A stretch of DNA of 64,000 bases, taken from positions 1,054,001 to 1,118,000 of the forward strand of contig NZ_JADBEJ010000001.1 of assembly GCF_014873915.1 (NCBI RefSeq). Direction: 5' to 3'. Position 1 is the stretch's first letter; every line of letters starts with the position of its first letter. A program made the position numbers and the translations under genes. This document shows, piece by piece, positions 8,509-26,650 of this stretch. The stretch comes from Amycolatopsis roodepoortensis (GTDB taxonomy: Bacteria; Actinomycetota; Actinomycetes; Mycobacteriales; Pseudonocardiaceae). Under the pieces are notes generated by a model, which saw only the letters and a program-made list of their open reading frames with translations, was not told where the DNA came from and searched no databases.

Positions 8509-8510
8509 AG

Positions 8511-10799
8511 ATGGACATCACTCGCAGGACAGTGCTCGGCGGGGCCTTGGCGGGCGTGGCGGCGGCCGGGTTCGCGCCGCCGGCTTCGGCCGTGGAGAAT
8601 GACTTCGCGCTCGGCGGAATCGACTGGCCCGGCTTCCTCGGCGCGGCCGACCTGATCTGGCACCGCATGCCGAAGACCTGGTACGAAGGCCCCTTCCTTG
8701 GCAACGGTTTCCTCGGCTCGGGCATCTACGCCGAACCGGGCCGGAACGCCGTCCGGTTCAACGTCCAGCACAGCGAGGTGCAGGATCACCGGCCGGAGTT
8801 CGGCTCCCTGTTCGGGCTCGCGCGACTGCCGATCGGGTACTTCACCCTCGAACCTGTCGGCGCCATCACCAGGATCGACTGGCGGATGGACCTCTGGAAC
8901 GCCGAACTCAGGGGCACGATCACCACGGCCGCGGGCAGTCTCTCGCTGCGCGCGATCGTCCACACCGGACAGTCACTGCTGGCCGTCGAGATCGAGCCGT
9001 CCGAGGGGGAGCGCGGCTTCGAGTGGGTCTTCCATCCGGCCGAGGCGGTGAGCCCGAGAACCGATCCGAAGTTCGGGAAGCCGCCCGCCGGGTATGTGGC
9101 CAACCCGCCCGCGACTCTGGAAAGCAGCGGCGACGCCAGGCTTTCCGTGCAGACGTTGTTGTCCGGCGGGGAGCACGTCACGGCGTGGCGCGAGGTCGAC
9201 CGCGGATCGAAGCGGACGCTGTACACGTCGGTGGCGTGGTCGTTCCCGAAGCGGACGGCCGCGCGAGAGGCGTTGAAGACGGTCCGCCGGGCCGAGCCGT
9301 TCTCCGCGCTGACTGCCGGACATCGTCGCTGGTGGCACGACTACTATCGGCACGGTTTCCTGTCCGTTCCGGACACCCGGCTCCAGAGCTTCTACTGGAT
9401 CCAGCTGTACAAGATCGCCTCCGCCGCGCGCCGGGAAGCGCCGGTGATGGCGACCTGCGGACCGTGGCTGGAGCCGACGCCGTGGCCCGCGACCTGGTGG
9501 AACCTCAACGTCCAGCTGGAGTACTGGCTCATCCACGGGTCCAATCACCTCGAACTGGACGCGGTGAGCCACGCGCTCGGCAAGTTCCGGGCGAACCTGA
9601 CGAGCCAGGTCGCCGAGCCCTACCAGCACGATTCGGCGGGTATCCCGCGCACGACCGACATGACCCTGCTCAACGGCGCGGTCGGGACGAACGCGGGGTT
9701 CCCGGTGGGTATCCCGGGCAAGGAGACGCCGACTCCGGAGGTCGGCAATCTCACCTGGGCACTGCACAATGTCTGGCTGTCCTATCGGCACACGATGGAC
9801 CGGCGCCTCCTGCGGGACACCCTGTTCCCGTTGCTGCGCAAGGCGATCAACTTTTACCTCCACTTCCTGGCGCCTGGGCCGGACGGGAAACTGCATCTGC
9901 CGGCGACGTTCTCCCCGGAGTACGGCGTGAACGCGCCGGACTGCAACTACGACCTCGCGTTGATCCGCTGGGGTTGCAAGACCCTGCTGGAGTCGGCGGC
10001 GGAACTGCGCCTCGACGACACGCTCGCCGGGCGGTGGCGGGAGGTGCTGGCCACGCTGGTCCCGTATCCGGCCGACGCCAACGGTTACATGATCGGCGCG
10101 GGGGTGCCGTTCGCGAAATCGCACCGGCACTATTCGCATCTGCTGCAGATCTACCCGCTGTACGAGATCACCTGGGAGCGCACGGAGCATCGGCGGATCA
10201 TCGAGACCTCGCTCGACCACTGGGTGGGCTTCGAAGGCGCGTTGCAGGGCTACACGTTCACCGGCGCCGCGTCGATGTCGGCGCAGATGCTGCGCGGCGA
10301 CAAGGCGGCGTTCTACCTCGGCGAACTGCAGCGGCGCTACATCCAGCCGAACACGATGTACAAGGAATCCGGCCCGGTGATCGAGACGCCGCTCTCGGCC
10401 GCGCAGTCGCTGCACGACATGCTCGTGCAGAGCTGGGGCGGGGTGATCCGGCTGTTTCCGGCCGTGCCCGCCGCCTGGGCCGACGCCGCGTTGCGCGACT
10501 TCCGCACGGAGGGAGCGTTCCTGCTCAGCGCTTCGAGGCAGGCGGGGAAGACCCGCTGGGTCAAGGTCACCAGCGAGGCGGGGGCGCCGTGCGTGCTGCG
10601 GACGGACATGGACGGGGAGCTGACCGTCCGCGACCGGTGGGGGCGGCCGAAACGCTGGCGGCGGTCGCCGAACGGCGACGTCCACGTCGACCTGCGGCGT
10701 GGGGAGGAGGCGGTCGTGTACCGCGCGGGCGACCGGCCGGACCTCGAGATCCGGCCCGTCCCGTCGAACGGGACCAGCGCACCATGGGGGATGCCGTGA
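8511..10799 (+). CDS. Tat-exported GH95-type glycoside hydrolase, copy 2
   Basis: A 762-residue paralogue of the preceding gene, starting 2 bp after its stop. The ATG at 8511 begins MDITRRTVLGG, a twin-arginine signal with an Ala-rich core ending at ASA; an upstream in-frame ATG at 8496 would only overlap the previous gene. Family 95 signatures are conserved: WWNLNVQ (N331, N333), FSPEYG (E470), an HRHYSHL segment and AQSLHDML. The two proteins align over their full length but differ considerably, for example in the loops after the NxN motif, so this is an old duplication with likely divergence in linkage or sugar preference. Export and tandem arrangement suggest the pair work on the same heteropolysaccharide. 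Confidence 0.85.
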   Translation: MDITRRTVLGGALAGVAAAGFAPPASAVENDFALGGIDWPGFLGAADLIWHRMPKTWYEGPFLGNGFLGSGIYAEPGRNAVRFNVQHSEVQDHRPEFGSLFGLARLPIGYFTLEPVGAITRIDWRMDLWNAELRGTITTAAGSLSLRAIVHTGQSLLAVEIEPSEGERGFEWVFHPAEAVSPRTDPKFGKPPAGYVANPPATLESSGDARLSVQTLLSGGEHVTAWREVDRGSKRTLYTSVAWSFPKRTAAREALKTVRRAEPFSALTAGHRRWWHDYYRHGFLSVPDTRLQSFYWIQLYKIASAARREAPVMATCGPWLEPTPWPATWWNLNVQLEYWLIHGSNHLELDAVSHALGKFRANLTSQVAEPYQHDSAGIPRTTDMTLLNGAVGTNAGFPVGIPGKETPTPEVGNLTWALHNVWLSYRHTMDRRLLRDTLFPLLRKAINFYLHFLAPGPDGKLHLPATFSPEYGVNAPDCNYDLALIRWGCKTLLESAAELRLDDTLAGRWREVLATLVPYPADANGYMIGAGVPFAKSHRHYSHLLQIYPLYEITWERTEHRRIIETSLDHWVGFEGALQGYTFTGAASMSAQMLRGDKAAFYLGELQRRYIQPNTMYKESGPVIETPLSAAQSLHDMLVQSWGGVIRLFPAVPAAWADAALRDFRTEGAFLLSASRQAGKTRWVKVTSEAGAPCVLRTDMDGELTVRDRWGRPKRWRRSPNGDVHVDLRRGEEAVVYRAGDRPDLEIRPVPSNGTSAPWGMP

Positions 10800-10859
10800 C
10801 GGCGTGAGCGGCGATACGCGAGAGTGTTCCTGTACTTCTTCCGGACGACAGGAGCACAG

Positions 10860-11843
10860 ATGTCCCAGCCACCGCAGCCGGGCGAGCCCGAAGGCGAGGC
10901 GCCCGACCCCGGGGCTCCGCAGGGGCAGCAACCCCAGCCGCAGTACCAGCAGCCCTATCCGCAGCAGCCGTACCAGCAGCAAGGCTGGTACGGCGCGCCG
11001 CAACAGCCGCCGCCGTCGTCGAACAAGACGGTGCTCTGGGTGGGCCTGGGTGCGCTGGGACTCGTCGTGATCGTCGCCGTCGTGGCGAGCATCGGCTTCG
11101 TGGTGTCGGGGTACTTCCTGCCGGACTCGAAGGACACGAGCGCGGCCGTGTCGTCTTCGTCCTCGCCGGCTCCGACGTCCAGCTCCGAGGACACGACGAC
11201 GCAGAGCCCGGTGAACATCCCTTCGAACAGGGTTCCGATGCCGAAGCGGAGCACGCCGCTGGCGGATCCGACGGACTGCGCGTACCCGGCGGATTCCACC
11301 GGTTCGGTGCCGAAGAAGGCGAACCCGCCCGCGGCGGGCCCGACCCCGGCGTCCGGCACGTCGGAGGTCACGGTCAAGACGACCGCCGGTGACATCGGGC
11401 TGACGCTGGACCGCGGGCTCGCGCCGTGCACCGTGGCGAACTTCCTCTCGCTGGCACAGCAGGGTTACTTTGACGGAACCTCGTGTCACCGGCTCGGTAC
11501 CTCTAGCCTGCAGATGCTCCAGTGCGGCGACCCTGAAGGTTCCGGAATGGGCGGTCCGGGATACACCATTCCGGACGAGGTCTTCTCGGGGCTGAGGTAC
11601 GGGCGGGGCATTCTCGCCATGGCGAAGAGGCAGGAGCCGAACTCGGGCGGCAGCCAATTCTTCATGGTCTACGGAGAAGCCGAGCTGCCGCCGGAGTACA
11701 CCGTGTTCGGGAGCATCTCGGACGCCGGTCTTCAGACGCTGGACAAGGTCGCGCGCGGTGGCGTGGACGATTCGAAGGGGCCGGGCGACGGGACCGGACC
11801 GCCGCGGCTCCCCGTGACGTTCCAGTCGATCGCGGTGGGCTGA
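10860..11843 (+). CDS. Membrane-anchored cyclophilin-type peptidyl-prolyl isomerase
   Basis: A 327-residue protein with three parts. Residues 1-55 are a cytoplasmic Pro/Gln-rich tail (repeats of QQPYPQQPYQQ). One membrane helix follows at about 57-85 (LWVGLGALGLVVIVAVVASI), then a Ser/Thr linker. The C-terminal cyclophilin domain has TTAGDIGLTLDRGLAPCTVANFLSL, CHRLGT, GMGGPGYTIPDEV, GRGILAMAKR and NSGGSQFFMVYG. The active-site arginine of FHR is kept in CHR, and the QFFM motif is intact. It probably assists folding of exported proteins on the outer face of the membrane. The ATG at 10860 has an AGGAG site 5 bp upstream; an earlier in-frame ATG at 10824 lacks one. It follows the GH95 pair by 60 bp and could be read from the same transcript. 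Confidence 0.9.
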   Translation: MSQPPQPGEPEGEAPDPGAPQGQQPQPQYQQPYPQQPYQQQGWYGAPQQPPPSSNKTVLWVGLGALGLVVIVAVVASIGFVVSGYFLPDSKDTSAAVSSSSSPAPTSSSEDTTTQSPVNIPSNRVPMPKRSTPLADPTDCAYPADSTGSVPKKANPPAAGPTPASGTSEVTVKTTAGDIGLTLDRGLAPCTVANFLSLAQQGYFDGTSCHRLGTSSLQMLQCGDPEGSGMGGPGYTIPDEVFSGLRYGRGILAMAKRQEPNSGGSQFFMVYGEAELPPEYTVFGSISDAGLQTLDKVARGGVDDSKGPGDGTGPPRLPVTFQSIAVG

Positions 11844-11855
11844 ACACGATTTCCG

Positions 11856-12086
11856 CCTCGTGAGTGGTGAGGACGGTTCTAGCCAACGGCGGTCGCGTTT
11901 TCGGAGCTCACCTGTACTGCCGGGGGTTGCGAAAGTGGCTTTCGCAACGTCGGCCATGGCCAGGCACGGTATCGCCGTGGCGAGCATGTCGCGAAAGCCA
12001 CTTTCGTGACGTCTGATGTCCCGAAAGTGGCTTTCGCGACACCCCCGGGCCTGGAGCCAGCAGAAGCGTCCTCACCACTCACGAGG
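11856..12086. repeat. Terminator-like inverted repeat split by a 191-bp insert
   Basis: CCTCGTGAGTGGTGAGGACG at 11856-11875 is the exact reverse complement of 12067-12086. The same stem occurs as a compact hairpin at 24206-24251 and, shorter, at 32284-32322, each just after a gene. Here the two arms are pushed apart and the intervening DNA carries a different palindromic family. Confidence 0.8.
11987..12041. repeat. 55-bp palindromic element, copy A
   Basis: Two 24-nt arms (11987-12010 and 12018-12041), complementary at all but one position, flank the 7-nt loop GTCTGAT. The core is GCGAAAGCCACTTTCG. An almost identical element in the reverse orientation lies at 26761-26815. Confidence 0.85.
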
Positions 12087-12095
12087 TCCGTGCGC

Positions 12096-12638
12096 TCAGT
12101 GGGAAGGCGGGTACCGGACACCGAACCATTGCTCCGCGCCGTACTCCTCGAACCGGTCCACTTCAGTGAACCCGAGCTTCGCCGCGAGGCGCATCGAGCC
12201 TTCGTTGGCGGTCTGCGTGCAGAGCACCACCGGTTCGTCGGGAAGCGCGTCAGCGAACCAGTCGAGTGCCGCCGCGCAGGCCTCGGCGGCGTACCCGCGT
12301 CCCCATGCCCGCGGCAAAAGCAGGTACCCGAGTTCGGTCTCCCCGGCATCCGGACGGATATGCCCGGGGCGCTCCGCGTCACGCTGATCGAGCGTGATCA
12401 TGCCGATCAGCGACCCGTCGAGCTCGATGACGAACAGTCCCGGTCGCCGGCCCGGAATCGCGGGGCTCGTCCGCTCGAGCTCCTCACGCGGTCGAGCGCC
12501 GCCGATGTACGTGCCCACCTCTGGCGAGGCGAAGAGCTCGATGAACGCCGAGCGGTCACGGGCTTCGGACCCGCGGAGGACGAGCCGCTCGGTCTTGATC
12601 GGGGCGGGTGGCCAGACGACGTGACCGAGATGGGTCAT
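12096..12638 (-). CDS. GNAT family N-acetyltransferase
   Basis: A 180-residue acetyltransferase of the RimJ/RimL-like group. It begins IKTERLVLRG, the usual first strand of these enzymes. The acetyl-CoA site is ELGYLLLPRAWGRGYAAEA (motif A, Q/RxxGxG/A as RAWGRGY), and the C-terminal signature is NEGSMRLAAKLGF. These enzymes move an acetyl group from acetyl-CoA to an amine, often a protein N-terminus or an antibiotic; the substrate here is unknown. The ATG at 12638 was chosen because the homologous region begins right after it; the frame extends further upstream only through the neighbouring amidase. It sits 10 bp downstream of the amidase stop on the same strand, so the two are probably one operon. 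Confidence 0.88.
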   Translation of the reverse strand: MTHLGHVVWPPAPIKTERLVLRGSEARDRSAFIELFASPEVGTYIGGARPREELERTSPAIPGRRPGLFVIELDGSLIGMITLDQRDAERPGHIRPDAGETELGYLLLPRAWGRGYAAEACAAALDWFADALPDEPVVLCTQTANEGSMRLAAKLGFTEVDRFEEYGAEQWFGVRYPPSH

Positions 12639-15990: not shown

Positions 15991-16815
15991 TCAGAGCGGG
16001 TTGTGCGCCCCCAGCGGCGCGGTGCAGAACGGCCCGCCGACGTACTCCGCCGCGATCCCGGTCGGCGCGGGCATGTCCGCCAGCTGGTCGGCGTAGGTCT
16101 CCGCGTTGTCGAGCGACTTGTAGCCCAGGGCCTCGGCTTCGGCGAGTGAGTAGACCCGTCGCGTGTTGTCCGAGACGCCCCAGACCAGCCGGTAGCCGGG
16201 GGAGGGGTAGCTCAGGCAGGCCTCGAACAGGCGCGCGCCGTCGTCGGGGGAGAGCCAGGTCGTCAGGCCGCGCGGGCCGAGGACGAGCGGGCTTTCGAAG
16301 CAGGAGCCGATCCGGATGACGATCACGTCCATGCCGAACCGCGAGTGGTACAGGCTCCCGAGTGCTTCGATGGCCGCCTTGCTGACGCCGTAGTAGGTGT
16401 CGGGCCGGGGCGTGGAGTCGGCGGGGAGGCCGTTCTCGCCCGCTTCGTCGTTGCGGCGGAAGCCGACGGAATGGTTGCTGGAAGCCAGGATCACGCGCGG
16501 CACACCGGCGGCCCGTGCGGCTTCGAGGACGGTGTGCGTGCCGTTGATGTTGACGTCGAGGGTGGCTTCCCACGAGTTCTCGCGGCTGTGCCCGCCGAGG
16601 TGGATCAGCGCGTCGACGCCGGCGCAGGCCTCCGCCATCGCCTCCGGGTCGGTCACGGAAGCGGTGATCAGCTCGACGTCCTCGCCGCCCGCGGCTTCGG
16701 GCTGCGCGGCCAGGTCGAGCAGTCGCAGCACCCGGCCGGGACGGCGCAGCCGCGGGCGCATCAGGGTGCCGACGATACCCGCCGAGCCGGTGATCAGGAC
16801 GCGCTGCTCTGCCAT
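15991..16815 (-). CDS. udh: Uronate dehydrogenase-like NAD(P)-dependent dehydrogenase
   Basis: A 274-residue short-chain (epimerase-type) dehydrogenase. The nucleotide site is VLITGSAGIVGTLM at the N-terminus; the catalytic part includes IHLGGHSREN, LASSNHSVGF and YYGVSKAAIE (Tyr-xxx-Lys). Size and the SSNHSVGF and GSCFESPL segments match uronate dehydrogenases (EC 1.1.1.203), which oxidise D-glucuronate or D-galacturonate to the aldaro-lactone. This is the entry step of the oxidative uronate pathway, whose remaining enzymes are encoded by the divergent operon starting at 17818. It lies just downstream of the iclR gene on the same strand (35 bp), so regulator and first enzyme are co-transcribed. 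A plain sugar epimerase is the main alternative, but context argues against it. Confidence 0.85.
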   Translation of the reverse strand: MAEQRVLITGSAGIVGTLMRPRLRRPGRVLRLLDLAAQPEAAGGEDVELITASVTDPEAMAEACAGVDALIHLGGHSRENSWEATLDVNINGTHTVLEAARAAGVPRVILASSNHSVGFRRNDEAGENGLPADSTPRPDTYYGVSKAAIEALGSLYHSRFGMDVIVIRIGSCFESPLVLGPRGLTTWLSPDDGARLFEACLSYPSPGYRLVWGVSDNTRRVYSLAEAEALGYKSLDNAETYADQLADMPAPTGIAAEYVGGPFCTAPLGAHNPL

Positions 16816-16850: not shown

Positions 16851-17663
16851 TCAGCGGATGCCGGCGCGGCGCAGTTGCTGGCCGAGTTCCGCGGTGATTT
16901 CGGCGAGGAGCTCGCCGACGCGCCGGGCGTCGGCGTCGGTGACTTCGGTGACCGGCATGGAGCAGCTGATCGCGTCGGTGCCGGGGATGCGATACGGGAT
17001 CACGGCCGCGACGCAGCGCACGCCGAGGCTGCCTTCCTCGACTTCCGAGGCATAGCCGCGTTCGCGGGTCGTCGCGCATTCGGCGTGCAGCGCCTCGACG
17101 GTGGTGATGGTGTTCGGGGTGAGCGCCGACAGCTCTCCGGTCAAGAGCCCGTCGATCTCGTCGTGCGTCAGTTCGGCCAGTAACGCCTTCCCCAGCGCGG
17201 TCGCGTGGGTGGGCAGCGTGCGGCCGACGCGGGAGACGAGATGCGTCGAGTGCCGGGACTCGCGCGTCTCCAGGTAGACGACGTCGGTGCCTTCGCGGCG
17301 CGCGAAATGCGCGGTGTAGCCGGTCTTCTCCCGGATCCGCTCCAGCGCCTCGGTCGCGTACGGGACGATCGGGTCGCGGTCCAGATACGCCGTGCCGCAG
17401 ATCAGCGCGCGGACGCCGAGGCGGTAGCGGGCGGTGTTCGGGTCCACCTCCAGCCAGCCTGCTTCGAGCAGGGTGCGGAGCAGCCCGTGCAGGCTCGACC
17501 GGGGGAAACCGGTGCGCGCGTGGAGATCCGACAGGGAAAGCCACACGTCGTTCGCGGCGAAGGTCTCGATGAGGTCGATCGCCCGCCGGGCCGATTTGAC
17601 CCCGGCGGGTTCGGCGGCGGGCGCGCCGTTCGCCACGGTGACAGCGGCTTCCTGCTGTGGCAT
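16851..17663 (-). CDS. IclR family transcriptional regulator
   Basis: A 270-residue IclR-type regulator: N-terminal winged helix at about 20-85 (KSARRAIDLIETFA ... LSDLHARTGFPRSSLHGLLRTLLEAGWL) and a C-terminal effector domain with THLVSRVGRTLPTHATALGKALLAEL and the typical RGYASEVEEGSLGVRCVAAVI. It probably binds a uronate or aldarate intermediate and controls the surrounding pathway. The start MPQQEAAV has GGAGG 6 bp upstream; the frame continues 28 codons further but without similarity. It reads divergently from the transporter, with two inverted repeats in between. Confidence 0.9.
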   Translation of the reverse strand: MPQQEAAVTVANGAPAAEPAGVKSARRAIDLIETFAANDVWLSLSDLHARTGFPRSSLHGLLRTLLEAGWLEVDPNTARYRLGVRALICGTAYLDRDPIVPYATEALERIREKTGYTAHFARREGTDVVYLETRESRHSTHLVSRVGRTLPTHATALGKALLAELTHDEIDGLLTGELSALTPNTITTVEALHAECATTRERGYASEVEEGSLGVRCVAAVIPYRIPGTDAISCSMPVTEVTDADARRVGELLAEITAELGQQLRRAGIR

Positions 17664-17817: not shown

Positions 17818-19329
17818 GTGCACGTACTCGACTGGGCGATGGTCTGCGCGTATTTCGCGTTGATGGTCGTGATCGGCTGGTGGTCGCACAAGCGGATCCA
17901 CGATGTGAAGGACTTCTTCACCGCCGGGGGGCGAATGCCCTGGTGGCTGACCGGGATCTCGCACCATATGTCCGGCTACAGCGCGGTGCTGTTCGTCGCC
18001 TACGCGGGCGTGGCCTACACGAGCGGGATCACCGTCTACTTCTGGGGCATGGCCAGTATCGGCATCGGCGTCGGTATCGGCAGCTGGCTGTTCGCCGCCC
18101 GGTGGAACAGGCTCCGGTCGAAGCTGGGGGTGGCCTCCCCGCTCGAGTACCTAGCGCGGCGGTTCAACGTCCCGACGCAGCAGGCGCTCGCGTGGAGCGG
18201 CAGCCTGCTGAAGATCTTCGACATCGCGGCGAAGTGGTTCGCGATCGCCACGATCCTCAACGTCTTCGCCGGGGTGGACTACACCTGGGGCATCATCATC
18301 ACCGGCTCGGTCACGCTGGTCTACTGCACCGTCGGCGGTCTTTGGGCCGACGCGCTCACCGACTTCGGCCAGTTCGTGATCCAGGCGATCGCGGCCATCG
18401 CCATGCTCTGGGTGGTGCTGGGCAAACTCGGCGGCGTCTCCGGTCTGTGGACGATGTGGGGCGACCTCCCGCCGAGCCACCTCAACCCGACCACGTCGAA
18501 GTTCACCACCATCGTGTTGCTCGTCTACGTGCTGGTGAAAACCCTGGAGTACAACGGCGGTATGTGGAACCTGGCGCAGCGCTACATGGCCGCGCCGGAC
18601 ACGCACGCGGCACGCCGGGGCGCGCGGCTCTCCTCGATCCTGTACCTGGTGTGGCCGCTGTTCATGATGTTCCCGATGTTCGCGGCCCCATTGCTGATCC
18701 CGAACATCGAGAACCCGGACAACGCCTACGCGATCATGACGACGACGTTCCTGCCGCCGGGCCTGATCGGGCTGGTGCTGGCGGGCATCTTCTCCCACAC
18801 GATGGCGATGGTGTCGTCCGACGCGAACGCGATCTCCGCGGTCATCACGCGTGACATGCTGCCGGTGCTGATCAAGAAGACCCGCCGGTGGACCGAGGCG
18901 CAGGGCCTGCTGGCCGCCCGCATCACGACCGCGATCTTCATCGTGCTGACCATGGCGGTCGCCACGCAGGCGCCCAAACTCGGCGGTGTGCTCGGGATCG
19001 TGGTGCTCTGGGTCGCGGCTCTGATGGGCCCGATCTCGGTACCGCTGCTGCTCGGCATGCTCCCGTGGTTCCGCCGATCCGGCTCCCGCGCGGCGCTGGT
19101 CTCGTGGGCGGGCGGTCTCATCGCCTACGCGATCGCCTACTACGGCTTCAAGGCCACCCTCGCGGTCACCGTGTCCACCCCGATCCTGGTCTCGCTGGGG
19201 CTGTTCATCGGGCTCGGCTTCCTCATGCCCGAGCGCACGGCCGCCACCGACGAGATCATCGACACGATCGACCGCGACGACGACGTCACCCCCACCAAGT
19301 CGCAGGACGGCACCACCGTGCCCGCCTGA
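17818..19329 (+). CDS. Sodium:solute symporter (SSS family), probable uronate/aldarate uptake
   Basis: A 503-residue integral membrane protein with about 13 hydrophobic helices, the size of SSS-family transporters. Typical features are WWSHKRIHDVKDFFTAGGRMPWWLTGISHHMSGYSA near the N-terminus (helix 1 and the Na+ site region), ALTDFGQFVIQAI in the middle and GIFSHTMAMVSSDANAISAVITRD later. The GTG start at 17818 has a strong AAAGGAG site; the frame runs on upstream through the operator region and is not used. As first gene of the glucarate operon it very probably imports the uronic or aldaric acid used by the following enzymes; substrate is inferred from context only. Confidence 0.88.
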   Translation: MHVLDWAMVCAYFALMVVIGWWSHKRIHDVKDFFTAGGRMPWWLTGISHHMSGYSAVLFVAYAGVAYTSGITVYFWGMASIGIGVGIGSWLFAARWNRLRSKLGVASPLEYLARRFNVPTQQALAWSGSLLKIFDIAAKWFAIATILNVFAGVDYTWGIIITGSVTLVYCTVGGLWADALTDFGQFVIQAIAAIAMLWVVLGKLGGVSGLWTMWGDLPPSHLNPTTSKFTTIVLLVYVLVKTLEYNGGMWNLAQRYMAAPDTHAARRGARLSSILYLVWPLFMMFPMFAAPLLIPNIENPDNAYAIMTTTFLPPGLIGLVLAGIFSHTMAMVSSDANAISAVITRDMLPVLIKKTRRWTEAQGLLAARITTAIFIVLTMAVATQAPKLGGVLGIVVLWVAALMGPISVPLLLGMLPWFRRSGSRAALVSWAGGLIAYAIAYYGFKATLAVTVSTPILVSLGLFIGLGFLMPERTAATDEIIDTIDRDDDVTPTKSQDGTTVPA

Positions 19330-19375: not shown

Positions 19376-20320
19376 ATGGCAGAGCGCAAGATCGAACTCG
19401 ACGGCCTACTGGCGTTCCCCCTGACCCCCTTCACCGAGGGGCTGGAACTGAACCTCGACGCGTTCGCGGAAACCGTCGAGAGCCACGTGGCCGCCGGAGC
19501 CGGCGCGCTGTTCGTCGCCTGCGGCACGGGCGAATTCAGCTCGCTGTCCCCGGACGAGCACGCAGCGATCCTGCGCAAGGCTCGTGAGGTCGTCGCCGGG
19601 CGGGTGCCCGTGTGGGTCGGCGCGGGCGGAGGAGCGGCGTCGGCCCGCGCCGGGATCGCGGCGGCGGAGGCGGGCGGCGCGGACGGCGTCCTCCTCCTGC
19701 CGCCGTACCTGGTCACCGGTCCGCCGTCCGGCCTGGTCGACCACGTGCGGTACGCCGTCGGGGACTCCTCGATCCCGGTGATCGTCTACCACCGTTCCAC
19801 CGGCGTTTTCACCCCGGACTCGGCCGTCGACCTGCTCGGCATCCCGTCGGTGGTCGGCATCAAGGACGGCTTCGGCGACGTCGAGCTCATGAGCCGGATC
19901 ATCACCACGATCCGCTCCGCCGGCACCGACCGGGCCAAGGATTTCCTGTTCTTCAACGGTCTCCCGACGGCGGAGGTCTCCGCGCGCGCCTACGCCGCGG
20001 TAGGCGTCGCGCGGTACTCCTCGGCCGTGCACTGCTTCGCTCCCGAGATCGCGGCCCGCTTCCACCGCGCGCTCGCGGAGAACGACGACGCCGTCATGGA
20101 GGCGCTGCTCGCCGGCTTCTACCTGCCGCTCGTGGCGCTGCGGGACGAAGGGAAGGGCTTCGCCGTGTCGCTGGTCAAGGCCGCCGCGCGCCTGCGGGGT
20201 GACAAGGTCGGCACGGTCCGGCCGCCGCTGGTCGAGCCCACCGCGGACCAGATCGCCCGCCTGGAGAAGATCATCGACGACGGGTTCGCCGTCCTCAAGT
20301 CCGTCGAGGCCGGTGCCTGA
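19376..20320 (+). CDS. kdgD: 5-dehydro-4-deoxyglucarate dehydratase
   Basis: A 314-residue class I aldolase-fold enzyme of the DHDPS superfamily. The Schiff-base lysine is K163 in SVVGIKDGFGDVE and the tyrosine is Y138 in IVYHRSTG; GTGEFSSLSPDEH matches 5-dehydro-4-deoxyglucarate dehydratases (EC 4.2.1.41) rather than lysine-pathway synthases. It decarboxylates and dehydrates 5-dehydro-4-deoxy-D-glucarate to 2,5-dioxopentanoate. It follows the symporter by 46 bp and its stop is 2 bp before glucarate dehydratase, so the two are translated together. Confidence 0.92.
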   Translation: MAERKIELDGLLAFPLTPFTEGLELNLDAFAETVESHVAAGAGALFVACGTGEFSSLSPDEHAAILRKAREVVAGRVPVWVGAGGGAASARAGIAAAEAGGADGVLLLPPYLVTGPPSGLVDHVRYAVGDSSIPVIVYHRSTGVFTPDSAVDLLGIPSVVGIKDGFGDVELMSRIITTIRSAGTDRAKDFLFFNGLPTAEVSARAYAAVGVARYSSAVHCFAPEIAARFHRALAENDDAVMEALLAGFYLPLVALRDEGKGFAVSLVKAAARLRGDKVGTVRPPLVEPTADQIARLEKIIDDGFAVLKSVEAGA

Positions 20321-20322
20321 AG

Positions 20323-21579
20323 ATGAAGGTTCTCGACGTCGTCCTGACCCCGGTCGCCTTCGCCGACCCTCCGCTGCTCAACGCGATGGGCGTGCACGAG
20401 CCCTTCGCGTTGCGCGGTGTCGTCCAGCTGATCTGCGAAGACGGCGTGGTGGGCCTCGGCGAGTCCTACGGTGACCTCGCGTTCCTCGAGCAGGTCAGGA
20501 AGGTGCTCCCGGAACTCAAGGGGCACGACGTGTTCGACCTGCCCGGCCTCCGCCGGAAGGTCGCCACCACCCTCGGCGAGGTCGTCTTCGCCGACGCGCA
20601 CGGCCTCACCGGCGGCTTTTCCGTCAGCAAGACCGTCGCCAGCGTGTACTCGCTGTTCGAGGTGGCCGCGCTCGACGCGCAGGGCCACTACCTCGGCAGG
20701 CCGGTGGTGGACCTGCTCGGCGGCAAGGCACGCGACAAGGTCGACTTCTCCGCCTACCTGTTCTACAAGTTCGGCGCCCACATCGGTGCCGAGGAGGACT
20801 CGTGGGGCGAGGTGACCACGCCGGAGGCGCTCGTCGGCGAGGCACGCCGCATGGTCGAGGAGTACGGCTTCGGTTCCATCAAGCTGAAGGGCGGCGCCTT
20901 CGACCCCGACCAGGAGATGGACGGGATCCGCGCGCTCGCGGACGCTTTCCCGGACCACCCGCTCCGCATCGACCCGAACGCGGCGTGGACCGTCGAGACC
21001 GGGATCCGGGTCGCCGAAGAACTCGACGGCGTCCTGGAGTACCTCGAAGACCCGACGCCGGGCATCGAGGGCATGGCGCGGGTCGCGGAGAAGGCGAACA
21101 TGCCGCTGGCCACGAACATGTGTGTCGTGCGCTTCGCGGACATCGAGCCGGCGTTCCGGCAGCGGGCGGTCGGCGTAATACTTTCGGACCATCATTACTG
21201 GGGTGGCCTGCGGGACACCCAAGCCCTCTCGACCACGGCGGAATGCTTCGACGTGGGGCTGTCCATGCATTCGAACAGTCATCTCGGGATCAGTCTGGCC
21301 GCTATGGTGCACGTGGCCGCGGCGACGCCGCACCTGACCTACGCCTGCGACACCCACTGGCCGTGGAAGACGGCCGACGTCATCGCCCCGGGTGCGCTGG
21401 AGTTCGCCGACGGTGCGGTCGCGGTGCCCGACAAGCCCGGGCTCGGGGTCGAACTCGACCCCGACGCGCTGGCGCGGGCCCATGAAGACTATGTCCGAAG
21501 TGGACAGACCAAACGGGATGACGTGACCTATATGCGGAAGTTCGTCGGAAGCTTCGAACCGAACACGGCACGGTGGTGA
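20323..21579 (+). CDS. gudD: Glucarate dehydratase (enolase superfamily)
   Basis: A 418-residue enolase-superfamily enzyme. The KxK general base is K187/K189 in SIKLKGG; metal ligands lie in RIDPNAAW, YLEDPTPG and the following TNMCVV, and the second base/dyad region reads SDHHYWGGL and SMHSNSHLGISLA, all typical of glucarate dehydratases (EC 4.2.1.40). It dehydrates D-glucarate (or related aldarates) to 5-dehydro-4-deoxyglucarate, the substrate of the gene just upstream. The gene starts 2 bp after kdgD and ends 4 bp before the uncharacterised gene. Confidence 0.92.
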   Translation: MKVLDVVLTPVAFADPPLLNAMGVHEPFALRGVVQLICEDGVVGLGESYGDLAFLEQVRKVLPELKGHDVFDLPGLRRKVATTLGEVVFADAHGLTGGFSVSKTVASVYSLFEVAALDAQGHYLGRPVVDLLGGKARDKVDFSAYLFYKFGAHIGAEEDSWGEVTTPEALVGEARRMVEEYGFGSIKLKGGAFDPDQEMDGIRALADAFPDHPLRIDPNAAWTVETGIRVAEELDGVLEYLEDPTPGIEGMARVAEKANMPLATNMCVVRFADIEPAFRQRAVGVILSDHHYWGGLRDTQALSTTAECFDVGLSMHSNSHLGISLAAMVHVAAATPHLTYACDTHWPWKTADVIAPGALEFADGAVAVPDKPGLGVELDPDALARAHEDYVRSGQTKRDDVTYMRKFVGSFEPNTARW

Positions 21580-21583
21580 CGAG

Positions 21584-22729
21584 GTGAAGGTCACCGGATA
21601 CGCCTACCCCTGGGACGTCGTCGACGATCCCGGCTTCGTCGAGCGCGTACGGGAACTCGGCGTCGACGAGGTCGCCGTCGCCGTGTCGTACCACAGCGCC
21701 CGGGCGGCGACGCCCTGGTCGCCGGAGCGCACTTCGGTCGTCGCGCGTCACGCGGCGCTGTACCGCCCGGTGTGTGAGGAGGCGTGGGGTGAGCTGAAGC
21801 CCGCCGAGCCGGACTGGGTCGAAAGCCGCGACAGCGCCGGCGACGCCGTCCGGACGCTGAACGGCGCGGGGATCCCGGCCGCGGCGTGGATTGTGCTGAC
21901 CCATAATTCGCAGCTGGGCACGGAGTTCCCGGATTTCACCGTGCGCAACTGTTTCGGCGAGCGGTATCCGTGGGCGCTGTGTCCCGGCCAGCCCGCGGTC
22001 CGGGAGTACGCGGCGAACGTGACGGCGGAGAGCCTCGCCGGGCTCGACTTCGCCACGGTCATCCTCGAGGCCTGCGGTCCGCTCGGCGCCGTGCACCAGC
22101 ACCAGCACGAGAAGACCGACGGCGTCTGGTCGCCCGCGGTGGCCCGGCTGCTCTCGATCTGCTGCTGCGACGAGTGTCTCGATGCTTGGGCCGCGGCGGG
22201 GCAGGACCCGGCGAAGGCGCTGGGCAAGCTGCGGGCCGAGGTCCGGCGGCTGATCGACAGCGGCGACCTCCGGGCGACCGAGGACAAGATCCTGCCCACC
22301 CTGCGGCAGGTCCTGCTCGACACGCGCCAGAACGCGACCGACGCTCTTCGGCGCGCGGTGCTCGAGAAGATCCCGGATGGGCCACGGATCGTGCTGCACG
22401 GCGCGATGGACCCGTGGGTCACCGGCGCGCTGCCGGGGCTGACGCCGTCGGCCCCGGACGACGTCGACGCGGTGGTGCTGCAGAACTGGGCACCCGGCCG
22501 TCCCAGCGTCGGCGCCGTCGCGGCGGCACGGGCGAAACTGCCGGAGAAGGTCGCCGTCGGTAGCTACATCACCGCGGTGGCCGCCAGCCCGGTGCCCGAC
22601 ATCGAGGCCTACACCATCGAACTCGGCAAGGCGGGCGCCGCCGAGCTGCACCTGTACCACCTCGGCCTCGCCGGCCCGGGGCGCTGGGCGGATCTCATCG
22701 CCGCCGTCAGCGCCGCGCAAGAACTCTAG
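21584..22729 (+). CDS. Uncharacterised, possibly TIM-barrel glycosidase-like protein in the glucarate operon
   Basis: A 381-residue protein I cannot place with certainty. It starts with GTG 4 bp after gudD, with a weak GACGAG site. Visible features are an opening YAYPWDVVDDPGFVERVRELG typical of a first TIM-barrel strand, SYHSARAATPW, AAWIVLTHNSQLG, a segment RNCFGERYPWALCPGQPAVREYAANV, then VILEACGPLG, a cysteine cluster CCCDEC, and VVLQNWAPG, VGSYITAV and AELHLYHLGLAG near the end. The alternation of strands and helices and ALCPGQPAVREY recall poorly known glycoside-hydrolase-like (GHL) families. There is no signal peptide. Being locked between gudD and the dehydrogenase gene (12 bp), it very likely serves uronate use, for example freeing a uronic acid from an imported oligosaccharide. 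Confidence 0.6.
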   Translation: MKVTGYAYPWDVVDDPGFVERVRELGVDEVAVAVSYHSARAATPWSPERTSVVARHAALYRPVCEEAWGELKPAEPDWVESRDSAGDAVRTLNGAGIPAAAWIVLTHNSQLGTEFPDFTVRNCFGERYPWALCPGQPAVREYAANVTAESLAGLDFATVILEACGPLGAVHQHQHEKTDGVWSPAVARLLSICCCDECLDAWAAAGQDPAKALGKLRAEVRRLIDSGDLRATEDKILPTLRQVLLDTRQNATDALRRAVLEKIPDGPRIVLHGAMDPWVTGALPGLTPSAPDDVDAVVLQNWAPGRPSVGAVAAARAKLPEKVAVGSYITAVAASPVPDIEAYTIELGKAGAAELHLYHLGLAGPGRWADLIAAVSAAQEL

Positions 22730-22741
22730 GAGACGCAAAAA

Positions 22742-24202
22742 ATGAGCCAGGCAACGGATCCCGCCACGCTCGAACAGATCCTCGCGGCCGCCGCCGATGC
22801 GGCAGGCACGACGGCGGCCGCGACCCCAGCCCAGCGCGCCGGATGGCTGAACGCGGCGGCGGACGCCCTCGACGCGGCCGCCGACGAGCTGATCGCGCTG
22901 GCAAACCGGGAGACTCATCTCCCGGCCTCCCCGCGGCTGCAGGGCGAGCTGAAGCGCACGACGTTCCAGCTGCGCCTGTTCGGCGAGGTGCTGGCCGACG
23001 GCGAGTTCCTCGGCGCCACGGTCGACCACGCGGACGCCGCGTGGCCGATGGGACCGCGGCCGGACATCCGTCGGCTGCTCACCCCGATCGGGCCGGTGCT
23101 GGTGTTCGCCGCCAGCAACTTCCCGTTCGCGTTCAGTGTCGCGGGCGGCGACACCGCGTCGGCGCTGGCCGCGGGCTGCCCGGTCGTGCTCAAAGCGCAC
23201 TCGGGGCACCCGGAGCTGTCCGCCCGCACCGGTGAGATCCTGCGTGACGCGCTGGTCAAGGCCGGTGCGCCGGAGGGGATCTTCGCGGTCGTCCACGGTC
23301 AGCAGAACGGTGTCACGGCGCTGAAGGACCCGAGGATCCAGGCGGCGTCGTTCACCGGTTCCGTGCCGGGCGGGCGCGCGCTGTTCGACATCGCGACCTC
23401 GCGGCCGTCGCCGATCCCGTTCTACGGCGAACTCGGCAGCGTCAACCCGGTCGTCGTCACGCGGGCAGCGATCGACGCGCGTGGTGAAGCGATCGCCAAG
23501 GGCTACGCGGGCTCGTTCACCCTTGGTGCCGGGCAGTTCTGCACCAAACCGGGGCTGCTGTTCCTGCCCGAGGGCCACGGCCTCGAAGACACGCTGCGCG
23601 AGGCCGTCGCGGCGGTCCCGGCGCAGCCGATGCTCAACGAGCGGATCGCGGCCGGATTCGCCGACGGGCTGGCGAAGCTGAGCGAGGTCGCCGGTGTCGA
23701 GGTGCTGTCGGAATCCGGTGGTACGGAAGGGATCTCGCACGGTGCGACCCTGCTCGCCACCACCGCCAAGGCCTTCCTGGCCGACGCCGACACCGTCCGC
23801 GAGGAATGCTTCGGCCCCGCTTCGCTCATCGTCACCTACGCCGATCAGGACGAGCTGATCAGCCTGCTCGGCGTGATGGAACCCGGGCTCACCGCGACGA
23901 TCCAGGGTGAAGAGTCCGATGTGGACTGGATCCGCCCGGTGCTCCCGTCGCTCACCCGCGTCGCCGGCCGTCTCCTGTGGAACGACTGGCCGACCGGCGT
24001 CACGGTCACCTGGGCACAGGAACACGGTGGTCCCTACCCGGCGACCACCGCGCCGACCAGTACCTCGGTCGGCACCGCCGCGATCGAGCGGTTCCTGCGA
24101 CCGATCGCCTGGCAGGGCTTCCCCGACGAGCTCCTGCCGGAACCGTTGCAGGAGAACAACCCGTGGGACCTGCCCCGCAGGACCGACGGGAAGCGCCAGT
24201 AA
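22742..24202 (+). CDS. Aldehyde dehydrogenase (NADP+), probable 2,5-dioxovalerate dehydrogenase
   Basis: A 486-residue aldehyde dehydrogenase. The catalytic cysteine is C267 in GAGQFCTKPGL and the general base is E230 in YGELGSVNP; cofactor-binding segments include ASNFPFAFSVAGGDTASALAAGCPVVLKAH and SFTGSVPGGRAL. The GQFCTKPGL/AHSGHP pattern is that of the ketoglutarate-semialdehyde group (EC 1.2.1.26). It would oxidise 2,5-dioxopentanoate to 2-oxoglutarate, completing the pathway begun by uronate dehydrogenase. The ATG has a CTAGGAG site. It is the last gene before a strong hairpin. Confidence 0.9.
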   Translation: MSQATDPATLEQILAAAADAAGTTAAATPAQRAGWLNAAADALDAAADELIALANRETHLPASPRLQGELKRTTFQLRLFGEVLADGEFLGATVDHADAAWPMGPRPDIRRLLTPIGPVLVFAASNFPFAFSVAGGDTASALAAGCPVVLKAHSGHPELSARTGEILRDALVKAGAPEGIFAVVHGQQNGVTALKDPRIQAASFTGSVPGGRALFDIATSRPSPIPFYGELGSVNPVVVTRAAIDARGEAIAKGYAGSFTLGAGQFCTKPGLLFLPEGHGLEDTLREAVAAVPAQPMLNERIAAGFADGLAKLSEVAGVEVLSESGGTEGISHGATLLATTAKAFLADADTVREECFGPASLIVTYADQDELISLLGVMEPGLTATIQGEESDVDWIRPVLPSLTRVAGRLLWNDWPTGVTVTWAQEHGGPYPATTAPTSTSVGTAAIERFLRPIAWQGFPDELLPEPLQENNPWDLPRRTDGKRQ

Positions 24203-24307: not shown

Positions 24308-26650
24308 ATGCCCGGTTTCGGATACTTCGACAGGAGAACGGCTTTGCGGGGAGGCGCGGCCGCGGCCGCTTCGGTAGCGCTCACGACCGCGCTCGCGAGC
24401 CCTTCGTCAGCGCAGCCTGCGGCCTCGGGCACGTCGTCCATCGTGTCCGGCTATCGCGAGCTGCAGACCGGGATCGACCGGCCGTCGGCCGAACGCTCCG
24501 CCGCGCTGGCGAATCTCGACCGGGTCGCGAAGGCCTACCACGACAGCATGACGGTCGACGGCGGTCCACTGTGGAAGGACCTCCCGCTCGGCCCAGGTAG
24601 CGAGTTCACGACGTCGATGTACGCCCGGCTTCGCGCGATCGCGGTCAACTGGGGCACCCCCGGTGGCGCGCTGGCGGGCGATCCCGCCGTGCTAGCCCGG
24701 ATCAAGGGCGCGCTGGAACTGCTGTACACCAGCGATCAGTACAGCGAGAAGACCGCCGAGATCGGCAACTGGTACACCTACGAGATCGGTATCCCGCTCT
24801 ACCTGCTGCACATCCTCGCGACGGTCGCCGACAAACTCGCCAAGGACGAACTCGCCAAGTACCTCAAGCCGGTGCTGAAATTCTCCGGCGATCCGAACCG
24901 TCGCACCAACAACCCCAACGTCGTCGAGACCGGTGCCAACCGCGCGGACAAGTCGATGATCTCGATCGTCTCCGGTGCGATGCTCGGCGACGCCGACCGG
25001 ATCCGTCGCGGTGTCGGCGCGTTCACCGACGTCGAAGGCGGGGGAGCGGCGAGCGTCATCGCCAAACTCCACCGCGCGGCGGGTGACGGTTTCCACACCG
25101 ATGGCTCGTTTCTGCAGCACGACTCGGTGCCGTATCCCGGGCATTACGGGATCATCCTGCTCACCGCCGTCGCGTCCGCGATCCACGTCACCCAGGGCAC
25201 GGAGTTCGCACTGCCCGCCGACGTGCGCGATGCCGCGTACGCGTTGGTCGCCGACACGTTCGCGCCGTTCGTCCACGCGGGCGCGATGATGGAGTCGGTC
25301 CGCGGCCGGTTCCTTTCGCGGCAAGGGGAATCCGCGCACGACATCGGGCATCAGCTCACCGGCGCGGTGGTTCTGCTGGCGCGGTCGGCGAGTGGCCGGC
25401 GCAAGGACGAACTGGGCGGTCTCGCCGCGAAGTGGATCACCGAAGACACGTTCGCGCCGTACCTGAAGATCCCCGATCCCGAACGGTTCGCGCCGGGGCC
25501 GGACCTCGTCGGCATCCCCGGTATCGAGTTCGCGCAGGAGTTGCTGGCGACCGGGATCCGGCCGGCGCGGACGGTCGCGACGCATCGCGTGTTCGGCCAG
25601 CAGGACCGGATGGTGCACGTGACCGAAGGCTGGTCGGCCTCGCTCGGCGTCGCCTCGACCCGGATCTCGCGGTACGAGTCGATCAACTCGATGAACCTGC
25701 ACGGCTGGTACGTCGGTGACGGGTCGCTGTATCTGTTTCTGCCCAAGGCGAAGGGACATTTCACCGACGCCTACTGGCCGACGGTCGACCCGCTCTTGCT
25801 GCCGGGCACGACCACCAAGACCGGCCCGACGCCGAAACTGGAGTCGGTCCCGCTGACGAGCAAGGATCACTGCGGTGGGGTCCGCTGGGACGCGCGGCAT
25901 GGCGCGCACGCCCTGGACTTCATTTCCCAGGACGGCACGCTGACCGCGAAGAAGTCGTGGTTCTTCACACCCTCGGGCGTGCTGTGCCTCGGTGCCGGGA
26001 TCACCGACTCCTCCGGCGAGCGCGTCCGCACCACCATCGAGAACCGTAACCTCGGCGAGAACGGCTCCGGTGTCCTGCTCGCCGACGGTCATCTCGTCGG
26101 CGGCTCGGAGTCGTTGCGGCGCAAGCGATGGCTGCACCTGGAGAAGGTCGGCGGGTACGTCCTGCTCGACAACGCCGAGGTCACCGCGCTGCGCGAGGAC
26201 CGGACGGGCACCTGGCGCGACATCGACAAAGGCGCCAACACGAAGGGTACGACCGTGCCCTACACCCGGCGTTATCAGAAGCTGGTCATCGAACACGGCG
26301 CCAATCCCTCGAACGCGAGCTACGCGTACGCCGTCCTGCCCACCGCGTCGGTGCTGGAGACGATCGCCTCGGTCTGGTCGTGGCGCGTGCGGTCCAACAC
26401 CGCGACCGTGCAGGCCGTCCGGCTGTGGGACGCGACGCTGCTGGCGAACTTCTTCGCCGCCGGCTCGGTCGACGAGGTGTCGGCATCCGGTCCGGCGTCG
26501 ATGGCGCTCGGCCGGACCCGCGACGGCTGGAAGCTGGCCGTTTCGGACCCGACGCAGCGGCAGGAAGTCCTGCGCGTGACCGTGCGGCGCAAGACCGTCG
26601 AAGTACCGGTGAAGGACACCTTCGGCGCCACACAGATCGTCCGCGTTTAG
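24308..26650 (+). CDS. Tat-exported PL8-family polysaccharide lyase
   Basis: A 780-residue exported lyase. The start MPGFGYF has GGGAGG 7 bp upstream and leads into a twin-arginine signal (FDRRTALRGG, then an Ala-rich core). Family 8 features: alpha/alpha toroid with NWYTYEIGIPLYL, ETGANRADKS (N211), DGSFLQHDSVPYPGHYG (H271, Y280), ESVRGRFLSRQ, then NSMNLHGWYVGDGSLYLF and beta-sandwich domains. Asn, His, Tyr and Arg form the family's catalytic set. PL8 includes hyaluronate, chondroitin AC and xanthan lyases, which cut uronate linkages by beta-elimination. The precise substrate is not readable. It probably supplies oligosaccharides for the uronate operon just upstream, although lyase products carry unsaturated uronates. 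Confidence 0.9.
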   Translation: MPGFGYFDRRTALRGGAAAAASVALTTALASPSSAQPAASGTSSIVSGYRELQTGIDRPSAERSAALANLDRVAKAYHDSMTVDGGPLWKDLPLGPGSEFTTSMYARLRAIAVNWGTPGGALAGDPAVLARIKGALELLYTSDQYSEKTAEIGNWYTYEIGIPLYLLHILATVADKLAKDELAKYLKPVLKFSGDPNRRTNNPNVVETGANRADKSMISIVSGAMLGDADRIRRGVGAFTDVEGGGAASVIAKLHRAAGDGFHTDGSFLQHDSVPYPGHYGIILLTAVASAIHVTQGTEFALPADVRDAAYALVADTFAPFVHAGAMMESVRGRFLSRQGESAHDIGHQLTGAVVLLARSASGRRKDELGGLAAKWITEDTFAPYLKIPDPERFAPGPDLVGIPGIEFAQELLATGIRPARTVATHRVFGQQDRMVHVTEGWSASLGVASTRISRYESINSMNLHGWYVGDGSLYLFLPKAKGHFTDAYWPTVDPLLLPGTTTKTGPTPKLESVPLTSKDHCGGVRWDARHGAHALDFISQDGTLTAKKSWFFTPSGVLCLGAGITDSSGERVRTTIENRNLGENGSGVLLADGHLVGGSESLRRKRWLHLEKVGGYVLLDNAEVTALREDRTGTWRDIDKGANTKGTTVPYTRRYQKLVIEHGANPSNASYAYAVLPTASVLETIASVWSWRVRSNTATVQAVRLWDATLLANFFAAGSVDEVSASGPASMALGRTRDGWKLAVSDPTQRQEVLRVTVRRKTVEVPVKDTFGATQIVRV

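Follow-up and report, generated by a model that had tools for sequence, protein, structure and literature searches.

A glycoside-hydrolase-type barrel protein of no named family that is tied to sugar-acid breakdown

Within the window, i.e. the whole stretch of 64,000 nucleotides of Amycolatopsis roodepoortensis DNA that was analysed, one gene (X in the following) encodes a protein of known fold that represents a new branch, as yet without a name, among the glycoside-hydrolase-type barrels and is tied to the breakdown of sugar acids. The linkage of X to uronate breakdown is firm, and X probably performs an unrecognised step of sugar-acid breakdown. Regarding its reaction, we tentatively favour, at a probability of about 0.4, a cytoplasmic glycosidase-fold enzyme that would hydrolyse uronic-acid glycosides and supply free uronate; this reading is slightly preferred over that of an aldarolactonase.

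Results

Gene X and its surroundings

Gene X is embedded in a group of uronate genes (Table 1). The gudD-like gene ends 4 nt before X (at 21579) and the aldehyde dehydrogenase gene starts 12 nt behind it (at 22742), in agreement with the spacing of 4 and 12 bp from two pathway enzymes that an earlier interpretation of the letters alone (the sequence-only reading) had given. From its context the aldehyde dehydrogenase is presumed to act on alpha-ketoglutarate semialdehyde. The symporter has its best PDB match in 5nv9, presumably the sialic-acid carrier SiaT. The product of the PL8 gene is hyaluronate-lyase-like in NCBIfam, below the cut-off, with an N-terminus that is Tat-like by eye, and X itself has no signal peptide as judged by eye. 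Elsewhere in the window (6229-8508 and 8496-10799, + strand) two genes lie in tandem whose products contain GH95 catalytic domains according to Pfam (E 3.8e-20 and 1.3e-25). Both N-termini are Tat-like, such that the two proteins possibly form an exported alpha-fucosidase pair.

Table 1. Coordinates of the genes around X and of selected codons of X within the window
Feature	Position	Strand	Remarks
Uronate dehydrogenase (udh)	15991..16815	-	Best PDB match 3rft 'Uronate dehydrogenase', E 5.5e-47
IclR-type regulator	16851..17663	-	Pfam IclR_C; start from gene caller
Sodium:solute symporter	17818..19329	+	Pfam SSF; best PDB match 5nv9 'Putative sodium:solute symporter', E 1.1e-20
kdgD, 5-dehydro-4-deoxyglucarate dehydratase	19376..20320	+	NCBIfam NF002958, above cut-off
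gudD-like glucarate dehydratase	20323..21579	+	PDB 3vdg 'Probable glucarate dehydratase', E 1.1e-158
X (gene in question)	21584..22729	+	ORF, GTG start, 381 aa
Tyr36-His37 codons	21689..21694	+	End of strand 2; invariant 23/23
His107 codon	21902..21904	+	After strand 3; invariant 23/23
Cys133 codon	21980..21982	+	Invariant; aligns with GH42 Cys; candidate structural-zinc ligand
Glu162 codon	22067..22069	+	End of strand 4 (158-162); invariant 23/23; main catalytic candidate
His171 to His175	22094..22108	+	Loop after strand 4; H175 23/23, H171 22/23
Cys193-x-Cys195-x-x-Cys198 ('CCCDEC', residues 193-198)	22160..22177	+	Zinc-site-like CxCxxC; invariant
Aldehyde dehydrogenase	22742..24202	+	Pfam Aldedh
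PL8 polysaccharide lyase	24308..26650	+	Pfam Lyase_8 domains; start from gene caller

X is a single-copy gene in its own genome, where the sole other match has an E-value of 0.475. Comparison with ten Amycolatopsis orthologues provided a dN/dS of 0.106-0.182, such that X is a protein under purifying selection, and the frame is open in 44 of 45 related loci. The exception is found in Amycolatopsis jejuensis (L039, 8001-9094), where a stop follows after 89 codons and the X match continues in another frame past it, due to either a draft error or a broken copy. The X of Nonomuraea gerenzanensis (L069, about 10650-10960, + strand) contains a long Thr/Ser/Pro/Ala/Gln-rich repeat insertion in the middle of the protein.

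The sequence-only reading recognised no family for X. Likewise, Pfam and NCBIfam returned zero families for X at E<=1, and a Pfam scan of 21 aligned members returned eight families, each from one member only, with a best E-value of 0.015. Sequence searches of the PDB with X provided nothing significant and only weak matches to Cwp19 (E 0.055), 2wsk (E 0.13 and 1.3) and the Cas2 protein 5h1o (E 0.74). A search of the open-access literature, with most subscription journals outside its reach, yielded nothing on X.

Predicted fold

Two AlphaFold models were obtained, one for the X of the window from an alignment of 21 members and one for the Nocardioides albus member, which is 45% identical to X. 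The window model (mean pLDDT 84.8, pTM 0.87) is a (beta/alpha)8 barrel whose main strands span residues 2-7, 29-37, 99-104, 158-162, 268-273, 296-299, 324-330 and 354-358, as anticipated from the barrel-like alternation of strands and helices. The order of the main elements is the same in the Nocardioides albus model (pLDDT 84.3). Beside the putative active site the confidence is low, with a pLDDT <50 at residues 168-176 of the window model and at 170-181 of the other.

In the Foldseek search with the window model GH151, PgaB, Cwp19 and GH156 lead, with the GH151 entry 6tvk at the top (E 4.3e-9). With the Nocardioides albus model Cwp19 and PgaB lead, and the GH156 entry 6s00 is found at 1.8e-8. 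For VIA-align, where rows within 1 Z were taken as tied, the best chains for both models are Cwp19 and PgaB (Z 23.7-24.2, rmsd 3.1-3.4 A, 287-306 residues). The Z values for the window and the Nocardioides albus model are 23.6 and 22.6 for GH151 6tvk, and 22.0 and 23.2 for GH42 1kwg. GH156 6s00 has a Z of 20.1 with the window model and is absent among the 50 matches listed for the Nocardioides albus model. According to their titles, the 50 VIA-align matches listed per model are all glycoside hydrolases or close kin of that fold, the kin including some transferases, one beta-amylase-containing complex and one noncatalytic beta-amylase-like protein; this agrees with the glycoside-hydrolase resemblance proposed before. 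For the predicted structures, these matches establish the fold of X, not its function.

Conserved residues and candidate active site

A wider alignment comprised 23 members, including rhizobial and haloarchaeal proteins, with 22-71% identity to X. Invariant throughout are Y36, H37, P73, W102, H107, C133, E162, H175, L189, C193, C195, C198, G281 and Y358, and the near-invariant positions include D11 (21/23), H171 (22/23), R248 and D295. The active site is likely formed by Glu162, which ends strand 4, together with the invariant Tyr, His and Trp residues. A second conserved carboxylate was found neither on strand 6 nor on strand 7 of the 23-member alignment: at position 328 on strand 7 the members have Tyr, Asn, Gly, Val, Leu or Ala, with no conserved acid anywhere on the strand, and the columns following strand 6 contain no conserved acid. 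A textbook two-carboxylate mechanism is thus unsupported. The uronate clade retains His272, Glu354 (once Gln) and His359, which few or none of ten distant members share; these residues may set the substrate choice.

The segment ALCPGQPAVREY, which had been highlighted as reminiscent of glycoside-hydrolase-like families, is present at residues 131-142 of X. The CCCDEC cluster highlighted alongside it is present as well. However, Nonomuraea, five clade-2 members and ten aligned distant relatives have Phe at residue 194. Due to this replacement outside the core clade, the motif is CxCxxC rather than CCCDEC. A profile comparison of the 23-member alignment with GH42 proteins taken from the taxonomic family to which the window belongs gave a score of 42 and a probability of 57%, while control comparisons with KdgD, GudD, Udh, aldehyde dehydrogenase and IclR gave scores of 15-25. 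Taken alone, this alignment of profiles would be a weak indication. It pairs C133, C193, C195 and C198 with GH42 cysteines that we take to be the GH42 zinc site, a site for which the open-access literature search provided no source. C133 and CxCxxC probably constitute a zinc site of structural nature rather than the active site, and CCCDEC was rejected as a catalytic feature because the motif aligns with the GH42 cysteines.

Linkage to uronate breakdown

Among 84,980 species genomes we found 45 X-related loci from Amycolatopsis (32), Streptomyces, Saccharopolyspora and Nocardioides, and udh is present in all 45. Adding the Nonomuraea locus, five clade-2 loci (32-37% identity to X; genus g8, taken as Streptomyces) and 30 loci from a class sample, and excluding the window, gave 81 loci, which are mutually related such that the counts are not independent. 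The class-sample search matched 55 genomes, only part of which are among the 81 loci. This count excludes the hits L181 and L182 of G589, whose scores are borderline, as well as the distant relatives and the genomes G128, G182 and G193, where X, KdgD and Udh are also side by side according to their coordinates.

Near X, udh, gudD or kdgD is found in 79 of the 81 loci (udh 74, kdgD 63, gudD 53). Only L160 and L178 are devoid of all three, and L178 begins at a contig edge. Within 150 bp of X there is gudD in 51 loci, kdgD without gudD in 17 and the symporter in seven. The tight uronate/aldarate linkage claimed by the sequence-only reading is thus observed, and the orthologues lie mostly inside uronate loci rather than outside. 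In a sample of 396 genomes, X was detected at E<=1e-50 in nine, all of which belong to the 18 genomes with a Udh match at 1e-40 (hypergeometric probability of the overlap 8e-14, uncorrected for kinship); the other nine of the 18 have no uronate-clade X. Ten stretches around Udh matches that were not taken for X (L095-L104) contain no kdgD or gudD at 1e-4, one of them having aldehyde dehydrogenase and IclR genes, such that these stretches are unusable as a control for the pathway without X.

Transporter homologues in the 81 loci are of the symporter (34), the ABC permease or binding protein (22, where some of the homologues belong to an adjacent cluster) and the TRAP type (2). X directly follows the symporter in seven Saccharopolyspora loci, a TRAP transporter gene lies about 0.6 kb from X in L045 and L153, and L177 contains an SDR dehydrogenase, GudD and X consecutively.

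The sequence-only reading had further stated that no aldarolactonase is otherwise encoded here. At 1e-8, homologues of the lactonase queries (two SMP-30-type, a fuconolactonase-like amidohydrolase and a creatininase) were found in none of the 81 loci. As a positive control, the SMP-30 queries L105 and L106 find each other and L107, yet only at E 1e-9 to 1e-11, such that remoter SMP-30 members could be missed. Three SMP-30 family genes lie elsewhere in the window's genome. Overall, the earlier account stands for the missing family, the barrel, the uronate link and the gap in the pathway, and falls for the cysteine cluster as a catalytic element.

Beside a clade-2 X locus (L074, 115-6550) we noted by eye an IlvD/EDD-like dehydratase, a DapA-like gene, a GntR-like regulator and sugar permeases, a set that resembles an oxidative pentose or aldonate pathway. 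An IlvD homologue recurs in L160, L162, L164, L168, L171, L173, L174 and L175.

Lyases near X and genomes without GudD

Homologues of four lyase families (PL8, PL6/chondroitinase B, PL14 and pectic acid lyase) occur within about 7.5 kb of X. They are found in 35 of the 81 loci, 29 of which represent a single Amycolatopsis PL8 lineage. PL8 is present in 29 of the 32 Amycolatopsis loci (29/45 overall); from the remaining three, L007 and L026 end at contig edges and L031 has none within 8 kb. The other homologues are PL6/chondroitinase B (L022, L151), PL14 (three Saccharopolyspora loci) and pectic acid lyase (L045), and no fetched clade-2 locus contains a homologue of the lyase queries. A GH29-like fucosidase gene accompanies the chondroitinase-B-like PL6 gene downstream of X in L022 (13758-17115, Streptomyces spiroverticillatus) and L151 (15454-17320, genus g8). 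A GH88/GH105 match is absent in 12 of 23 X genomes, among them the four of L016, L022, L035 and L045, where a lyase lies near X, and is found elsewhere in the window's genome. KduI (PF04962) was tried as a test of the unsaturated route and discarded as uninformative, with a match in 19 of 20 genomes; presumably this model also covers IolB. On a barrel-fold unsaturated glucuronyl hydrolase no source was found in the open-access literature search.

GudD was matched at 1e-20 in 15 of 18 X genomes and not in G334, G400 and G401, the last of which also has no KdgD match at 1e-30. G334, which consists of 2 contigs, possesses X, KdgD and Udh, and three enolase-superfamily places in it were not matched by the GudD search. 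Adjoining its X locus there is, by eye, an IlvD/EDD-like dehydratase that could supply another route. In some genomes, GudD may not be needed for X to act. In the clade-2 genomes G023, G128, G193 and G369 GudD (53-55% identical) is encoded elsewhere.

Distant relatives

Relatives of X span actinobacteria, rhizobia and haloarchaea and are mostly located in sugar-acid or amino-sugar loci. An X match occurs in 150 plasmid records, 112 of them from Rhizobium. Three haloarchaeal operons start with an ABC ATPase, a creatininase, a sugar-binding protein, two permeases, the X relative and an MR/MLE enzyme, and end with an SDR and RidA (Haloarcula, Haloferax mediterranei) or with a KdgD-like DapA protein and an SDR (Halomicrobium). 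On the haloarchaeal plasmids L120, L121, L122, L123 and L126 an operon of CUT1-type ABC, creatininase, X relative, MR/MLE and SDR genes with a RidA or DapA-like gene recurs. In total nine distant loci (L068, L071, L078, L079, L120-L123, L126) have a creatininase-family gene near the X relative, with three more cases in L181, L183 and L185; the Haloarcula creatininase matches IolN below the cut-off. Other haloarchaea combine the X relative with the peptidoglycan-type genes AnmK, NagZ and DUF1343, with heparinase II/III and GH20, or with GH2, GH38 and a sialidase-like gene.

In Rhizobiales the X relative is found with sugar ABC genes, a fuconolactonase-like amidohydrolase and a BhcC-like PLP enzyme; in Aureimonas such an amidohydrolase (E 2.7e-29, below cut-off) is in a row with it. 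L188 (G523, same class; 6455-12539, - strand) contains in a row a BhcC-like PLP enzyme, Eda, KdgK, RidA, the X relative and a D-aminoacylase-like amidohydrolase. This six-gene run has no dehydrogenase, a 2-hydroxyacid-dehydrogenase-like gene (by eye) lying beyond it on the other strand, and L184 has no dehydrogenase beside X either. The contexts of X are not all oxidative, since the distant locus L075 holds NagA-, SIS- and ROK-like genes by eye. Out of six distant relatives scanned, two match GHL10 or DUF4015 ('glycosyl hydrolase') at E 0.0023-0.0024, below the cut-off, two have matches at E 0.2-0.3 and two have none.

Comparison with known systems

The GH42 beta-galactosidases (1kwg) share with X the barrel fold and the four aligned cysteines. 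They differ by their Pfam family Glyco_hydro_42 (PF02449), a match to which is absent in X and 21 members, and by their length (644 aa for 1kwg compared to 381 aa for X). GH42 belongs to clan GH-A, in which the nucleophile is a Glu on strand 7, and this residue has no conserved counterpart in X. The C-terminal domain of PgaB, which we take to be GH153, and Cwp19 are the best VIA-align matches of both models, yet with 9-15% identity; PgaB and Cwp19 are cell-surface glycan enzymes, whereas X appears by eye to have no signal peptide. In fucosidases of the GH151/GH29 type a catalytic carboxylate ends strand 4; in GH151 it is the nucleophile D154, and E235 at the end of strand 6 is the acid/base (PMC10154630). 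The GH151 alpha-L-fucosidase (6tvk) is thus like X in having a carboxylate that ends strand 4, Asp in GH151 and Glu162 in X, and unlike X in its acid/base, for which X has no conserved counterpart. The GH156 exosialidase has Cwp19 as its closest DALI neighbour and Asp14 as its base (PMC6811678). Its structure (6s00) shares the fold of X, and the enzyme acts on an acidic sugar. The GH156 base lies early in the chain, on strand 1, and is combined with an acid His, for which X has Asp11 (21/23) and His107 (23/23) as conceivable counterparts; the Arg/Arg/Asn carboxylate triad of GH156 was not located in X.

The proteobacterial enzymes UxuL/UxuF, Gli and Gci take the pathway slot after Udh that X would take as a lactonase (PMC6353982). 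X matches none of their Pfam/NCBIfam families, with neither an SGL (PF08450) match nor an amidohydrolase match of the Gli or fuconolactonase type. SMP-30/UxuL-type lactonases are beta-propellers, and the X model is a barrel. The GH88/GH105 unsaturated uronyl hydrolases have an (alpha/alpha)6 fold; X has no match to PF07470, and both models are (beta/alpha)8. The ong pathway of Pseudoalteromonas is an N-acetylglucosaminate route with the GH20 glycosidase OngA (PMC9537276), and counterparts of its OngB, OngC, OngD and KdgK are found in the L188 run. Compared to the cluster as described there, L188 has in addition the X relative and Eda, while GH20 OngA, transporters and regulator were not seen in it. 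By this analogy L188 resembles the ong cluster with X at the place where OngA is missing.

Discussion

In the mechanism that we infer for X, including hydrolysis, substrate, zinc and catalytic roles, the protein would be cytoplasmic and stand where the oxidative uronate pathway begins. Imported aldobiouronic acids or other uronosides would be hydrolysed by X, and free hexuronate would pass to Udh. Lactone, glucarate, 5-dehydro-4-deoxyglucarate, alpha-ketoglutarate semialdehyde and alpha-ketoglutarate would then follow (GudD, KdgD, aldehyde dehydrogenase). Catalysis would rest mainly on the carboxylate of Glu162, with assistance from Tyr36, His37, His107, His171, His175 and Tyr358, and a structural zinc like that of GH42 would be bound by Cys133, 193, 195 and 198. 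Several observations favour a hydrolase acting on sugar-acid glycosides, namely the fold and the cysteine motif, the position of X behind two permeases or behind the symporter, and the comparison with ong, and the lyase homologues of four families near X count for it as well. Points against it are the missing second conserved carboxylate and the location beside gudD in 51/81 loci. In addition, the TRAP genes (L045, L153) and the 5nv9-like symporter suggest an import of free acids, which needs no glycosidase. The exported PL8 could not be served by X directly, due to the apparent absence of a signal peptide.

The TRAP and 5nv9-like carriers would suit an X that is an aldarolactonase, or another lactone-processing enzyme, with a new fold, which opens the glucaro- or galactaro-1,5-lactone made by Udh such that the aldarate passes to GudD; we consider this somewhat unlikely. 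It agrees with the restriction of X to Udh genomes in the 396-genome sample, with a tie to Udh, GudD and KdgD that holds whatever the transporter, with the adjacency to gudD or to kdgD alone, with the SDR-GudD-X run of L177 and with the lack of queried lactonase homologues at the loci. Moreover, Udh yields a 1,5-lactone, for which proteobacteria use the enzymes named above (PMC6353982). No lactonase is named among the listed fold-search matches, although absence there excludes nothing, and the window's genome has its SMP-30 family genes elsewhere. Aldarolactones also open spontaneously. As a family-wide role lactone opening is weakened, because relatives adjoin a fuconolactonase-like amidohydrolase, as in the Aureimonas row, or sit in dehydrogenase-free runs (L184, L188); the uronate clade could differ. 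Less likely still is another chemistry of this fold, such as that of an isomerase, an epimerase or a metal-dependent lyase, in which a metal would be bound by His37, His107, Glu162 and His175. The His-rich invariant set with its single invariant carboxylate would fit, as would the zinc enzyme UlaE at rank 50 of one Foldseek list; however, UlaE stands behind 49 rows there and is absent among the matches listed in the other three fold searches. For an isomerase, which the sequence-only reading had also considered, we obtained no positive support.

Genomes having X and no GudD would be explained by a route that bypasses GudD, and not by simple lactone opening. Here, X would free 4,5-unsaturated uronate from lyase products and Udh would oxidise the 4-deoxy-5-keto-uronate at C1 to 5-dehydro-4-deoxyglucarate, the substrate of KdgD, a chemistry that we infer. 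It would account for the lyase homologues, for lyase-bearing X genomes devoid of GH88/GH105 matches, for G334 and for the 17 loci with kdgD but not gudD beside X. We nevertheless regard this route as improbable: the fetched clade-2 loci have no lyase-query homologues, four genomes with the clade-2 locus encode GudD elsewhere, the window's genome has GH88/105 matches, no document that we found shows Udh oxidising the 5-keto sugar, and lyases in a uronate locus would go with the pathway rather than with X as such. Its broadest form, that X founds a new barrel family for cytoplasmic removal of 4,5-unsaturated uronate which makes glucarate dehydratase unneeded, with sister clades acting in parallel on N-acetylglucosaminate or other sugar acids in bacteria and archaea, seems marginally less probable still.

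Once the reaction of X is named, be it the favoured uronoside hydrolysis or another chemistry of the barrel, the actinobacterial uronate route would be complete around Udh, and many hypothetical proteins in actinobacteria, on rhizobial plasmids and in haloarchaea would be annotated. It would also become possible to test whether a single barrel scaffold is used in several oxidative sugar pathways that run in parallel.
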